Source: Rhodothermales bacterium (GTDB lineage: Bacteria > Bacteroidota > Rhodothermia > Rhodothermales > JANQRZ01). From it: a stretch of DNA of 64,000 bases. The position numbers were made by a program, and so were the translations under genes. The stretch lies in the NCBI GenBank assembly GCA_028284265.1, contig JANQRZ010000004.1, positions 1 to 64,000 on the forward strand. Reading direction: 5' to 3'. Each line of letters opens with the position of its first letter. Position 1 is the stretch's first letter. This document shows, piece after piece, positions 4,025 through 22,983 of the stretch. Under the pieces are notes generated by a model. The model searched no databases. It was not told the origin of the DNA and saw only the letters and a list, made by a program, of their open reading frames with translations.

Positions 4025-5218
4025 ATGCCCCCTTCGTCTCCGCCCCGTATCGTTCTCGTCGGTCCGTTTTTTCCGTATCGGGGCGGGATCGCGCACTTCA
4101 ACAACCGGCTCGCGCAGGCCTTTGCCGAGCGATGCGACGTGCGGATGTTGAGCTTCCACCGGCAGTACCCATCGTTGCTGTTTCCCGGTGAGACGCAGTA
4201 CGAGGACACGCCGTGGGACCTGCCCGGCACGCCTGAGCGGATCATGGATTCCGTCAACCCGCTCGCATGGAAGAAGGCGGGCGATTGGCTCGCGGCGCAG
4301 CAGCCGGATGTGGTGGTGCTCGCACACTGGATCCCGTTCTTCGTCCCGGCCTACCTGATGATGCTGCGCCGGATGCGGAACGTGCTCAAGGCGCAAGGAG
4401 CACCGCAGCCCGAGGTAACGCTGTTCCTCCACAACGTGCACCCGCACAAGCCCTTTCCGTTTACGAACCCGCTGATGCGCGCCCTCATCGGTGCGGCGGA
4501 TTCGTACTTCACCCTCTCCGGGCATATCTCGGACGACCTGCGCGCCCTCAAGCCGGAGGCGCGCGTGCTCGAAGCGTTCCACCCGGTCTACGACATCTTC
4601 GAGGACGCCGTCCCCGCCGCCGAGGCGCGCCAGCAACTCGGGTTGCCGGACCGCCCCACGCTCCTCTTCTTCGGTGTCATCCGTCGGTACAAAGGGTTGG
4701 ACCTCCTCGTTGAAGCGCTCCCGAAAGTGCGCGAGCGGGTCGATGTTCAACTCCTCGTGTCGGGCGAGTTCTACGAGGACGAGGAGGAGGTAAAAGCCCG
4801 CGTCCGCGAACTTGGCCTCGACGCGGGGCTGGAGCCTGCCGTCCGCTTCTTTCCCGGCTACGTCCCGAACGAGGAGGTTCACCTTCACTTCTGCGCCTCC
4901 GACCTCGCCGTCCAGCCCTACCGCACCGCCACCCCGAGCGGTGTCGTCCAGACCGCCTTCTACTTCGGCGTGCCGCTCGTGGTCTCCGACCTCGGAGTCC
5001 TCGCCGAGATGGTGCCCGATGGCGAGGCGGGATATGTCGTCCCGCCGGAGGACGTGGACGCGCTCGCCGACACCATCGTCCGGTTCTTCGAGGGCGACCA
5101 AGCGAAGCTCATCGACGGGGCGAAAGCGCAGGGCGACCGCTACTCGTGGGACGCGCTCGTAGACGAGTTGCTACCGTTCTTCACGCGCTCCGAGCCTGCA
5201 CCCGAACCAACCGCCTAG
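4025..5218 (+). CDS. Glycosyltransferase family 4
   Basis: 397 residues. The start at 4025 is preferred over the open frame's earlier start because the protein core begins PRIVLVGPFFPYRGGIAHFN, the N-terminal donor-side strand and Gly-rich loop of GT-B enzymes. The C-terminal half has the GT4 features: FFGVIRRYKGLDLL (nucleotide-binding strand-loop with Arg and Lys) and PSGVVQTAFYFGVPLV followed by EMVPDGEAG. It should transfer a sugar from a nucleotide-sugar donor to a lipid- or sugar-linked acceptor at the cytoplasmic membrane face. Its stop (TAG 5216-5218) directly abuts the epimerase start, and the methyltransferase follows after three bases. The three therefore form one operon, probably for surface glycan assembly. 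Acceptor unknown. Confidence 0.9.
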   Translation: MPPSSPPRIVLVGPFFPYRGGIAHFNNRLAQAFAERCDVRMLSFHRQYPSLLFPGETQYEDTPWDLPGTPERIMDSVNPLAWKKAGDWLAAQQPDVVVLAHWIPFFVPAYLMMLRRMRNVLKAQGAPQPEVTLFLHNVHPHKPFPFTNPLMRALIGAADSYFTLSGHISDDLRALKPEARVLEAFHPVYDIFEDAVPAAEARQQLGLPDRPTLLFFGVIRRYKGLDLLVEALPKVRERVDVQLLVSGEFYEDEEEVKARVRELGLDAGLEPAVRFFPGYVPNEEVHLHFCASDLAVQPYRTATPSGVVQTAFYFGVPLVVSDLGVLAEMVPDGEAGYVVPPEDVDALADTIVRFFEGDQAKLIDGAKAQGDRYSWDALVDELLPFFTRSEPAPEPTA

Positions 5219-18178: not shown

Positions 18179-19447
18179 CTACTCCGGGCGTCCGAGGAGG
18201 GAGAACATCTTCTGTTTGTAGTTCTCCACGCCGGGCTGGTCGAACGGGTTGATGCCGAGCAGGTAGCCTCCTACTGCGACGGCGTGCTCGTAGAACGCGA
18301 TGAGGGCACCGACCGAGCGGGCGTCGAGGCCGGGCATCGTGAGGGTCCAGTTGGGGACGCCGCCTTCAGCGTGGGCGGCGGCGGTGGCCTCGTAGGCGCT
18401 GCGGTTGATCTCGGCGTAGGTCTTCCCAGCTAGGTAGTTCAACTCGTCCGGGTTGCCGTCCTCCTCGCCGACCGTCGGCCCGTCGCCCGCATCGTCCACC
18501 CAGAGGAAGCTCTCGACGAGCGAGCGCTGGCCCTGCTGCACATACTGCCCGAGTGAGTGGAGGTCCGAGGTGTACTGCGCGACGGCGGGGAAGAGCCCCT
18601 TGTGCTCTTTGCCCTCGCTCTCGCCGAACAGCTGCTGCCACCACCCGCCGACGCCCGCGAGCCGAGGCTCGAAGGCGGCGAGCAGTTCGGTCTTGTAGCC
18701 CTGTTCGTGTAAGAGGTAACGGTCGGCGGCGTAGTCGAGCGCTGGATTGGCTTGGGGGCCGTCGAGCCGCTTCAACTCGTCCGAGGCTCCACCGACGAGC
18801 GCACGGACATCATGCCCCGCCGCCGCAATCGGTAGAAGGCCGACCGGGGTGAGGACGGAGAACCGCCCACCGACGCCGTCCGGGAGGACGAACTTGCGGT
18901 AGCCCTTCTCGTCGCGGAGTGGGTTGAGCAGCCCACCTGTCGGGCCAGTCGTGACGATGATCCGCTCGGCGGTATCGTCGAACGTCCGTTCGAGGTAGCG
19001 CCGGATGAATCGGAAGGCGAGCGACGGTTCGAGGGTGCTGCCGCTTTTCGAGATAACGTTGACATAGACACTCTTGCCTTGGAGAGTTTCGAGCAGACGC
19101 TCATGGTAGCCCGGCGAGAGGTGGTGCCCCGCGAACACGATCTCTAGGTCATCCTCGGCAAACGCCGGGGTGAGCGCGTCAATCACCGCCTTCGCGCCGA
19201 GGTACGACCCGCCGATCCCGATGCAGACCAGCACATCGGCCCGCTCGCGAATCTCCTCGGCCACCTCTTCGATGGCGTCGAGCGGGGGTGGCGTGCTGAG
19301 AAGCAGGTCGCGCCAGCCGAGCATGTCGGCTCCGGCGCCCGTGCCGTTGAGGACGGCGCGATGCGCGTCGAGGACGTAGGGCTGAAGACTCGCGCGGGCG
19401 CTGTCGTCGAGAAACGGGGCGAGGTGCTGGCGGTCGAGGGCGATCAT
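18179..19447 (-). CDS. pgi: Glucose-6-phosphate isomerase
   Basis: 422 residues, the short Bacillus-type form. It interconverts glucose-6-phosphate and fructose-6-phosphate in cytoplasmic glycolysis. Visible signatures are GIGGSYLGAKAVIDAL (phosphate loop), VISKSGSTLEPSLAFR (Ser/Thr phosphate site), TGPTGGLLNPLRDEKGYRKF with FVLPDGVGGRFSVLT, GESEGKEHKG with its catalytic Glu, and NPFDQPGVENYKQKM with the C-terminal Lys. It begins at ATG 19447. The small gene at 17945 follows closely. Confidence 0.96.
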   Translation of the reverse strand: MIALDRQHLAPFLDDSARASLQPYVLDAHRAVLNGTGAGADMLGWRDLLLSTPPPLDAIEEVAEEIRERADVLVCIGIGGSYLGAKAVIDALTPAFAEDDLEIVFAGHHLSPGYHERLLETLQGKSVYVNVISKSGSTLEPSLAFRFIRRYLERTFDDTAERIIVTTGPTGGLLNPLRDEKGYRKFVLPDGVGGRFSVLTPVGLLPIAAAGHDVRALVGGASDELKRLDGPQANPALDYAADRYLLHEQGYKTELLAAFEPRLAGVGGWWQQLFGESEGKEHKGLFPAVAQYTSDLHSLGQYVQQGQRSLVESFLWVDDAGDGPTVGEEDGNPDELNYLAGKTYAEINRSAYEATAAAHAEGGVPNWTLTMPGLDARSVGALIAFYEHAVAVGGYLLGINPFDQPGVENYKQKMFSLLGRPE

Positions 19448-19514
19448 GAGGGCGAGGCGATGGGGGAGAGGAAGGGATGATACGCAGGCGTGCGGCTGCC
19501 GTGTCGTGATAAAC

Positions 19515-19616
19515 CTATCCCGAGGCGGCAGCGGCGGCCCAGTTCCACATCAGCAAGACGAGCCAGAAAGCGAACACCGGTACTGGCAGCGACTCAGGCA
19601 AGTCGACCAAAGCCAT
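19515..19616 (-). pseudogene. Duplicated 3' end of the 19881-20348 gene
   Basis: A 33-codon frame (M-x-LVDLPESLPVPVF then FWLVLLMWN, ending AAAAASG) that repeats the last part of the LURP-like gene (LPESLPLPVRVFCFWLVLLMWN, then AAAAASG) with a few changes and a 6-bp deletion. Its ATG overlaps by one base the stop codon of the AT-rich membrane gene (TGATG), so it could be translated by coupling. It is more likely a remnant left when the AT-rich segment arrived. Confidence 0.75.
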
Positions 19617-19813
19617 CAGTTGAAAAACCTCTTGTATATAAAAAGTGAAATAACAAAAGACACTAAAAAGCAGCACAATTTATATATCATGCTTGCCAAA
19701 TCCTGCCTCTCCTCACCCCAAATCGCCCACAAGAACATTGGAATGCCTGTGTACGGCAACAAATAGTATACCGGCACCAAGATCAGCAATGTTATCAATG
19801 CTACCTTAGCCAT
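19616..19813 (-). CDS. Small AT-rich membrane protein
   Basis: 65 residues with two strongly hydrophobic helices (ALITLLILVPVYYLLPY and KLCCFLVSFVISLFIYK). A good ribosome-binding site (GGAGG) lies nine bases before ATG 19813, so the gene looks real. The DNA is strikingly AT-rich: 19621-19680 holds only 16 G or C in 60. It lies between two copies of the 3' end of the neighbouring gene (19515-19610 and 19882-19985). Both points mark it as recently acquired. No family recognised. Confidence 0.7.
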   Translation of the reverse strand: MAKVALITLLILVPVYYLLPYTGIPMFLWAIWGEERQDLASMIYKLCCFLVSFVISLFIYKRFFN

Positions 19814-19880
19814 TCACTACCTCCGTATGCATCAAGTGCGTCGTAATATATTTCAAGTACGGTCCACATTTATACCATGC

Positions 19881-20348
19881 TTACCCCGAGGCGGCAGCGG
19901 CGGCCCGGTTCCACATGAGCAGGACGAGCCAGAAGCAGAACACCCGCACCGGCAGCGGCAGCGACTCCGGCAAGTCGATCTTGGTCGCCCGCCCGAACCA
20001 CCGCACAGGCGTGATGTGGCCTATCCGATCGCCTGTATCGCCAGCCCGCAGGACAAACGCTCGCTTGAACGCCGAGTCCTTTTCGAGGACGAACGTTTGG
20101 TCGTCTAATTCGAGGATGAAGCGCTCGGAGAGCGCACTCGGCTTATCCGCTCGCACGAGCACGGCCTCTTGGAAGTCCAGCACGAAGTCGCCCACCATGC
20201 CCTCGCGGTAGAACTCGAAGGGCACGTCTTCGACGGAGAACGTCGCCCGCTCGCGCAGCTTGGCCAGCTTGAGCGAGCCGACCTCGCGCTCGCCGTCGGA
20301 GAGGCGGAAGGTGGAGGAGTACCAAGCAGCAGGCGCGGCGTGAAGCAT
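19881..20348 (-). CDS. LURP-one-like protein with C-terminal membrane helix
   Basis: 155 residues. The N-terminal 120 residues are beta-rich with the pattern of LURP-one/tubby-like folds (FRLSDGEREVGSLKL, FEFYREGMVGDFVLDF, FILELDDQTFVLEK, AFVLRAGDTGDRIGHITP). A single membrane helix ends the chain (VFCFWLVLLMW). It may be a membrane-tethered lipid-interacting protein, but that is only an inference from fold-like similarity. Part of its 3' end is duplicated at 19515-19610. Confidence 0.65.
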   Translation of the reverse strand: MLHAAPAAWYSSTFRLSDGEREVGSLKLAKLRERATFSVEDVPFEFYREGMVGDFVLDFQEAVLVRADKPSALSERFILELDDQTFVLEKDSAFKRAFVLRAGDTGDRIGHITPVRWFGRATKIDLPESLPLPVRVFCFWLVLLMWNRAAAAASG

Positions 20349-20413
20349 GAGGGGGCGGGCGGACGTAGGGGGCTGTCTTCAACGCACACCATCGGCGAGG
20401 GTGCCGCGCGGAC

Positions 20414-20420
20414 TATATTC
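20414..20420 (+). promoter_or_regulatory. Candidate -7 box for the acyl-CoA-binding protein gene
   Basis: TATATTC lies 36 bases before ATG 20457. The spacing and box match others in the window (48557, 31353). The -33 element is unclear. Confidence 0.4.
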
Positions 20421-20456
20421 CCGACGTCCTCTTCTCCCGCCAACCCACGCACTCCG

Positions 20457-20714
20457 ATGGCTGACCTCGCTTCCCAATTCGCTGCCGCTGCTGAGGCCGT
20501 GCAGGACCTCGACGAGCGCCCCGACAACGCGACGCTCCTTCAGCTCTACGCGCTCTACAAACAGGCGACCGTCGGCGACGTGGAGGGCCGCCGCCCCGGC
20601 TTCACCGACTTCGCGGGTCGCGCCAAGTACGACGCCTGGGCCGACCTCGAAGGCACCGATTCCGAGGACGCCATGCAGCAGTACATCGACCTTGTCGACG
20701 AGCTTCGGGGCTGA
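20457..20714 (+). CDS. Acyl-CoA-binding protein
   Basis: 85 residues, the usual length of a single ACBP domain. Start ATG 20457 is chosen because the four-helix domain begins at once. Family signatures are clear: LLQLYALYKQATVGDVEG, RPGFTDFAGRAKYDAW, and a final helix MQQYIDLVDEL. The Tyr and Lys of YALYKQAT and the Lys of GRAKYDAW match the residues that contact the CoA and acyl chain. It should carry or buffer long-chain acyl-CoA esters in the cytoplasm. It stands alone. Confidence 0.92.
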   Translation: MADLASQFAAAAEAVQDLDERPDNATLLQLYALYKQATVGDVEGRRPGFTDFAGRAKYDAWADLEGTDSEDAMQQYIDLVDELRG

Positions 20715-20856: not shown

Positions 20857-22983
20857 ATGGCTGCTGCTCCGAAGCTCAAAAAGACCCTCACGCTCTTCGA
20901 CGTCTACGCGATCTCGACGGGCGCGATGTTCAGTTCGGGGTTCTTCCTCCTGCCCGGCCTTGCCACGGCGAAGGCGGGTCCGGCGACGGTCCTCGCGTAC
21001 TTCCTCGCGGGCATCTTCATCCTCCCCGCGATGTTCTCCGCGGCGGAGCTTTCGACGGCGATGCCGCGGGCGGGCGGGGCGTACTACTTCCTTGACCGCA
21101 GCCTCGGGCCGCTGGCCGGGACGGTCGGCGGGTTGGGGACGTGGCTGGCGCTCGTGCTCAAGAGTGCCTTCGCGCTCGTCGGGATGGGGGCCTACCTCGT
21201 GTTCTTCTTCGACGTGCCCATCAAGCCGCTGGCAGTCGCGCTGACGGTCGCGTTCGCGGCGCTGAACATCGTCGGGGCGAAGGAGACGAGTGGGTTGCAA
21301 CGGGTGCTCGTAGCGGTGCTTGTCGGTGTACTCGCGTTCTTCGTTGTGCAGGGCCTCGCCGAAGTCGGTGGGATGGAGGGGAGCGACCTCGAACGGCAGT
21401 TCACGCCGTTCCTGCCGTTCGGGTGGGAGAGCATCCTCCCGACCATCGGGCTGGTGTTCGTCTCGTATGCCGGACTGACGAAGGTGGCCTCGGTCGCCGA
21501 AGAAGTCCAGAACCCCGACCGCAACCTGCCGCTCGGGATGTTCCTCTCGCTGTTCACGGCGACGGCGATCTACTGCGTCGGCGTGTTCATCATGATCGCG
21601 GTACTGGATGCGAATGAGCTGCGGAGCGACCTGACGCCGGTAGCGACAGCGGCGGAGGCGTTCTTCGACTGGTTGCCGGAGCCGTGGGGGCTGCTGCTCG
21701 TCGTTGCGGCAGCCATTGCCGCGTTCGCCTCGACGGGTAATGCAGGCATTCTCTCGGCTTCGCGGTACCCGCTGGCGATGGCACGCGACCACCTCGTGTC
21801 GGCCCGCCTCGGTGACCTCGGGCGCTTCGGGACGCCGGTCCCGGCTATCCTCGTGACGGCTGGACTGATGATCTTCGTGATTGTGGCGCTCGACGTGGAG
21901 GGGATCGCCAAGCTGGCGAGTGCCTTCCAACTGCTGCTCTTCGGGCTGCTCAACGTGGCGGTCATCGTGATGCGCGAGAGCCAGATTCCGGGCTACGTGC
22001 CCGGCTACCGCAGCCCGCTCTACCCGTGGATGCAGGTCGCGGGCATCCTCGTGCCCATCGTGCTGGTGGCGCAACTCGGGGCGCTGGCCTGGGGCACGTC
22101 GGCCCTAATGATTGCAGGGGGCGTGCTGTGGTACCGGCGCTACGCCCGCCCGAATCCGAAGGTTGAGCGCGAGGGGGCGATCTATCACCTCTTCGAGCGG
22201 CTCGGGCAGCGGCGCTACGACGGCCTCGACAGCGAGCTTCGGACGATTCTGAAGGAGAAAGGGATGCAGGACGAGGCCCCGTTCGAGAGCCTTGTCACCC
22301 GTGCTGCCGTGATCGACCTCGACGAGGCGGTGCCGTATGCGAACCTCATCGCCCGTACCTCGGCAGTGCTCGCGGATCAACTCGGTGTTCCAATGCAACA
22401 GTTGGAGCAGGGCTTCATCGACGCCTCCAGCTATGGGGCAACGCCGGTGGCGCACGGGGCCGCGCTCCCACACCAGCGTCTGCCGAACATCGAGCAGTCG
22501 GAGGCCGTCTTCGTGCGCTGCCGAGCCGGGGTCACGCTCGACACGTCGCTGGAAGATGAGTCGCGCTCGGAGCCGGTCTACGCGATCTTCTTCCTCGTCA
22601 GTCCCGAGGGAAGCACGAGCGCTCACCTCCGCATCCTCGCCGGACTCGCCAGCCGGATCGACGAAGAGCAATTCATGAGCGAGTGGCTCGCCGCGCCCGA
22701 CGAGCAAAAGCTCAAGGAGACGCTGCTCCACAATGAGCGCTACCTCTCGCTTCACCTCCACCCCGGCACCGACGCGGCATCGCTCATCGGCAAGGCCCTG
22801 CGCGAGGTCCGGCTTCCGGCGGGGACGTTGGTCGCGCTCGTGCGGAGGCGCGGACGGCTGCTCGTACCTAGCGGGATGACCGTTCTGGAAGCGAACGATC
22901 AGATCACGCTGATCGGTGAGGCAGAGGGCGTCGCCGAACTCTATGAGCGATACGGCAGCGCGTCTTCGAGCGCGCAGGCGTAG
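20857..22983 (+). CDS. APC-family permease fused to EIIA and TrkA_C domains
   Basis: 708 residues. Residues 1-430 form a 12-helix amino acid-polyamine-organocation transporter (STGAMFSSGFFLLPG, GGAYYFLDRSLGP, FVSYAGLTKVASVAEEVQNP, GYRSPLYPWMQ). Residues about 475-610 are a PTS EIIA type-2 domain. Its candidate phosphorylation site is His539 in GAALPHQRL. Residues about 630-705 are a TrkA/RCK C-terminal domain (LPAGTLVALVRRRGRLLVPSGMTVLEANDQITLIG). The transporter probably imports an amino acid or cation, gated by phosphorylation or a nucleotide/ion ligand. The chain is one frame with no shift. The substrate is not evident. Confidence 0.88.
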   Translation: MAAAPKLKKTLTLFDVYAISTGAMFSSGFFLLPGLATAKAGPATVLAYFLAGIFILPAMFSAAELSTAMPRAGGAYYFLDRSLGPLAGTVGGLGTWLALVLKSAFALVGMGAYLVFFFDVPIKPLAVALTVAFAALNIVGAKETSGLQRVLVAVLVGVLAFFVVQGLAEVGGMEGSDLERQFTPFLPFGWESILPTIGLVFVSYAGLTKVASVAEEVQNPDRNLPLGMFLSLFTATAIYCVGVFIMIAVLDANELRSDLTPVATAAEAFFDWLPEPWGLLLVVAAAIAAFASTGNAGILSASRYPLAMARDHLVSARLGDLGRFGTPVPAILVTAGLMIFVIVALDVEGIAKLASAFQLLLFGLLNVAVIVMRESQIPGYVPGYRSPLYPWMQVAGILVPIVLVAQLGALAWGTSALMIAGGVLWYRRYARPNPKVEREGAIYHLFERLGQRRYDGLDSELRTILKEKGMQDEAPFESLVTRAAVIDLDEAVPYANLIARTSAVLADQLGVPMQQLEQGFIDASSYGATPVAHGAALPHQRLPNIEQSEAVFVRCRAGVTLDTSLEDESRSEPVYAIFFLVSPEGSTSAHLRILAGLASRIDEEQFMSEWLAAPDEQKLKETLLHNERYLSLHLHPGTDAASLIGKALREVRLPAGTLVALVRRRGRLLVPSGMTVLEANDQITLIGEAEGVAELYERYGSASSSAQA

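Follow-up and report, generated by a model that had tools for sequence, protein, structure and literature searches.

How does a small AT-rich gene come to lie between two copies of the end of its neighbour? This question is raised by a stretch of 64,000 nucleotides from a Rhodothermales bacterium, referred to here as the window, in which the 3′ end of an uncharacterised protein gene (gene A) is found twice, once in the complete gene and once beside pgi. Along the minus strand, gene A (155 aa) is followed by a 67-bp spacer, a 65-codon ORF, a 33-codon ORF and pgi (Table 1), and the insert is bordered on either side, exactly at its ends, by a copy of the doubled 3′ end.

Table 1. Features from gene A to pgi (positions in the window)
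Feature	Coordinates	Strand	Remarks
Gene A, full-length	19881..20348	-	155 aa / 155 codons; beta-rich soluble part and C-terminal hydrophobic helix (predicted tail-anchored)
Duplicated 3′ end of gene A (last 31 codons + stop)	19881..19976	-	sequence comparison
AT-rich spacer, 41.8% G+C	19814..19880	-	carries Shine-Dalgarno GGAGGT at 19824-19819
Orphan ORF, 65 codons, two predicted transmembrane helices	19616..19813	-	no relative found
33-codon ORF, second, diverged copy of gene A 3′ end, MALVDLPESLPVPVFAFWLVLLMWNWAAAAASG	19515..19616	-	ATG 19616 to TAG 19515
pgi, glucose-6-phosphate isomerase	18179..19447	-	Pfam PF00342

The region 19515–19613 on the minus strand repeats the 3′ end of gene A. 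Ungapped DNA identity is 87% over 76 nt (19516–19591 vs 19882–19957), the copies of the tail, about 97 bp long, are 82–87% identical, and at the protein level identity is 81% over residues 122–155. When the whole genome was searched at the DNA level with the repeat region, 19882–19978 matched at E 1.2e-21 and all other sites gave E 0.06 or worse, which rules out a chance similarity of the two tails, the outcome that the first-pass annotation had named as one that would refute its proposal. The 6-bp deletion and few changes that it described were confirmed, and the 6-nt gap is real, single and in frame. The remnant is not merely a broken fragment; it is a 33-codon open frame with its own ATG, and this ATG shares base 19616 with the stop of the 65-codon ORF, exactly the TGATG overlap reported earlier. 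An assembly artefact or chimaera might be suspected in a 3.69-Mb draft genome of 24 contigs, but it is extremely improbable here: the copies differ by 13%, both lie inside one 288-kb contig, and a misjoin would not yield diverged in-frame copies. Two pairs of short partial repeats were also seen, 19871–19885 with 19683–19697 (13 of 15 bases) and 19599–19616 with 19796–19813 (13 of 18 bases). The latter pair joins the start regions of both small ORFs (ATGGCT..GGT..). Both pairs are probably due to chance.

The DNA between the tails is foreign in composition. The 270 bp poorest in G+C of the whole window lie here (39.6% vs 64.7%), and the next-lowest stretch of equal size is at 0.481. The value of about 27% G+C given by the first-pass annotation stands for the poorest 60 bases (19640–19699, about 28%) and not for the insert overall, which is near 40% (39.5% for the whole 200-bp gene region and 40.4% for the 270-bp segment). 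GC3 of the 65-codon ORF is 0.56, compared with 0.79 in host ORFs. The strong ribosome-binding site is indeed present, as GGAGGT 5 nt before the ATG. Any 5-mer Shine-Dalgarno word was found at the first start codon of 3 of the 35 long ORFs in the window, a rough count in which start codons were assigned mechanically, and Rhodothermus and Salinibacter have been reported to lack a Shine-Dalgarno signal (PMC3155529). A stop-free run of 64 codons has a chance of about 1% per given frame at such composition, so the 65-codon ORF is probably a real gene. That a membrane gene of 65 codons lies between the copies was borne out, since two long helices are predicted in its 65-residue product (single-sequence model, pLDDT 76; hydropathy).

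The 65-residue protein is an orphan. No relative was found in 245 genomes of the class, searched by both protein and DNA, in a phylum sample of 394 genomes, or in phages, plasmids and viral contigs, and a DNA search of the whole genome showed no other place from which the insert could have come; the search for the origin of the AT-rich segment, which had been proposed as a check, gave no source. Phylum matches at E 0.003–0.01 were in stop-bearing frames or in unrelated long ORFs. The best library matches were insignificant (RseC_MucC, E 0.5; a holin family, E 0.035; CcoS, E 0.04), the fold search with the model gave no significant viral match, and no RNA family was matched. The insert has room for the 65-codon ORF only, and next to it neither an integrase nor a transposase gene nor a recognisable attachment site is present.

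Two near relatives were compared, one of the same genus (G001, 96% complete) and one of the same family (G002). The 65-codon gene is absent from both. Gene A is absent from G001, where its place is taken by a gene for a 177-aa lipoprotein-like protein (L028, 5573–6106). This gene is absent from the present genome and has two neighbouring matches in G002, in which the homologue and gene A are about 10 kb apart. Gene A of G002 has a single 3′ end, followed by a different, glycosyltransferase-like ORF and then pgi. The look for an uninterrupted version of the locus in relatives, which the first-pass annotation had suggested, therefore leads only halfway: the gene end is single in G002, but another gene stands before pgi, and G001 is without gene A. 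The stop of gene A in G002 overlaps the ATG of the glycosyltransferase-like ORF (L029, around 4494–4496), so that a tight joining of genes to the 3′ end of gene A is seen in another genus too. The contents of G001 and G002 differ at this place, so the stretch from gene A to pgi is generally variable. Its far edge is marked by the pgi coding region and leader, which are conserved in G001 up to about 19484 (18183–19484 aligned at 85.8%). On the other side, two genes keep their order in G001 with 83–84% DNA identity: a small acidic helical ORF, which starts near 20460 (20460–20714), and one that is permease-like (20857–22983). This limits the variable stretch to about 19485–20452. Composition, a Shine-Dalgarno site unusual for the host, the lack of relatives and absence from G001 and G002 all support the earlier proposal that the AT-rich gene was acquired.

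When 114 genomes of the order were searched, relatives of gene A turned up in 18, and gene A aligns full-length to that of G002 (59% identity) and to others. It matched no Pfam, NCBIfam, PHROG or PDB family; its model, which is of moderate confidence (mean pLDDT 65), has a beta-rich body and a C-terminal hydrophobic helix, and the fold search gave no significant PDB match. The idea that gene A might be tubby/LURP-like gained no support. A Hassallia locus (L027) that appeared as a relative was a chance match, being an ABC-transporter permease, and a match of G001 to the tail at E 0.065 was the antisense of an unrelated gene.

The differences between the two tails are mostly synonymous. Eleven differences were found across 29 aligned codons, 7 of them synonymous by the Nei–Gojobori count, and these 29 codons gave dS 0.41, dN 0.065 and Fisher P 0.005. 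In a neutral simulation with 11 changes placed at random, three or fewer amino-acid changes occurred with P = 0.003–0.005. For pgi, dS between this genome and its congener G001 is 0.46. By this measure the distance between the tail copies is about that between this species and the one congener examined. They look like alleles from related species, and they diverged as coding sequence under protein-level selection. The first-pass annotation had explained the layout by partial target duplication, and this part of its proposal fits poorly. When an insertion simply duplicates its target site, the repeats are identical at first and the spare one then drifts neutrally. The tails do flank the insert directly, as such a duplication would leave them, but about 97 bp is far above the usual target duplication size, the repeats are neither short nor near-identical, the gap is in frame and the pattern of change is non-neutral; we consider this explanation very unlikely. 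Furthermore, TKIDLP of gene A is replaced by M-ALVDLP in the remnant, and other family members have ALVDLD or ALADLP. The remnant is closer to the other members of the family at these residues, which argues against plain decay of the present-day end of gene A and for a diverged homologous end. Such an end would either have been brought in or displaced by recombination, or be the stub of a tandem paralogue.

Our tentatively favoured explanation is that the locus is the scar of a horizontal acquisition, in which a foreign fragment entered gene A at its 3′ end by recombination. The incoming piece would have carried a diverged gene A end of its own together with the AT-rich, Shine-Dalgarno-led membrane gene. 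Gene A would have stayed full-length by using one version of the end, and the other version would have been displaced by about 366 bp downstream, beside pgi, where it would persist as the 33-codon ORF with a start codon formed at the junction. Here we infer the recombination step, and with it the identity of the incoming copy and the history of the insert, which may have been small from the start or shortened later. A truncated tandem paralogue would account for these data almost as well. In that case the whole of gene A would have been duplicated, both copies would have evolved under selection, and the downstream copy would later have lost its 5′ part to a deletion, with AT-rich foreign DNA taking the place of that part, so that the tail alone was left. 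This would also account for the mostly synonymous divergence and for the residues that the remnant shares with other family members. Nevertheless, it requires two events and a border exactly at a start codon, and the order sample contains no tandem full copies: every other genome with gene A has one match, and no second tail was seen near the other homologues checked. Similarity does not extend beyond the 3′ end either, and the AT-rich segment compared with gene A and its upstream region scored 17 against a shuffle mean of 17.4, which leaves no trace of the gene A 5′ part. We regard the paralogue as rather unlikely. Recombination is favoured over it because the repeat begins where the insert stops, because no second gene A or tail occurs in the other genomes checked, and because of this missing 5′ part. 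Against recombination, neither a recombinase nor a recognisable attachment site is present beside the insert, 0.27 kb is far below the size of a self-moving element, the statistics on the tails come from 29 codons, and an intact site without the insert is not among G001 and G002, which lack gene A or have another gene there.

The type of event that we favour looks like one already known, the e14 prophage in icd of Escherichia coli K-12. There too, a protein gene received the insert at its 3′ end and remains full-length, with the other version of the end at the far side (the icdC remnant), and the differences between the versions are likewise mostly silent: within the 165 bp that are duplicated, 12 nt are exchanged but no more than two amino acids, both conservatively (PMC11148124, citing Hill et al. 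1989). However, e14 is a prophage with an integrase, whereas the present insert lacks a recombinase and consists of 0.27 kb that hold a single orphan gene. In target-restoring genomic islands of tRNA and tmRNA genes (PMC4383910) and of dusA (PMC8409611), a regenerated target and a displaced fragment mark both borders, as they do here; unlike those islands, this locus has no integrase gene and no island-sized cargo, and its target is an uncharacterised protein gene. The 65-codon gene resembles the short ORFan genes of bacteria in being small, AT-rich and without relatives, but here a gene end present in two copies delimits the insert.

A further possibility is that the two small ORFs form a functional operon, in which membrane microproteins of 65 and 33 residues are co-translated through the TGATG coupling and the free tail-anchor helix is active, for example by competing with or binding the anchor of gene A. 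The stop/start overlap and the strong ribosome site are consistent with this, as are the intact 33-codon frame, the in-frame gap and the few amino-acid changes. The chance of a stop arising after equally many random changes is about 0.3. On the other hand, an arginine invariant in the gene A family (R148 of gene A) is a tryptophan in the remnant, the pair is known from a single genome, and the synonymous bias can be older than the truncation. A functional operon of this kind is therefore doubtful, and it is slightly more doubtful still that the tail anchor of gene A was freed as a 33-residue membrane microprotein, coupled to the acquired 65-residue protein and kept by selection.

The locus is a compact case of orphan-gene entry, in which a gene end is doubled, the host gene stays intact and the displaced short end gains a start codon. 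If the displaced end is not made or not kept, it would be a routine scar of foreign DNA recombining into a gene end. A working operon of two microproteins would, if true, be the new element, and a displaced end that is made and kept would point to a route by which membrane microproteins may arise from tail anchors.
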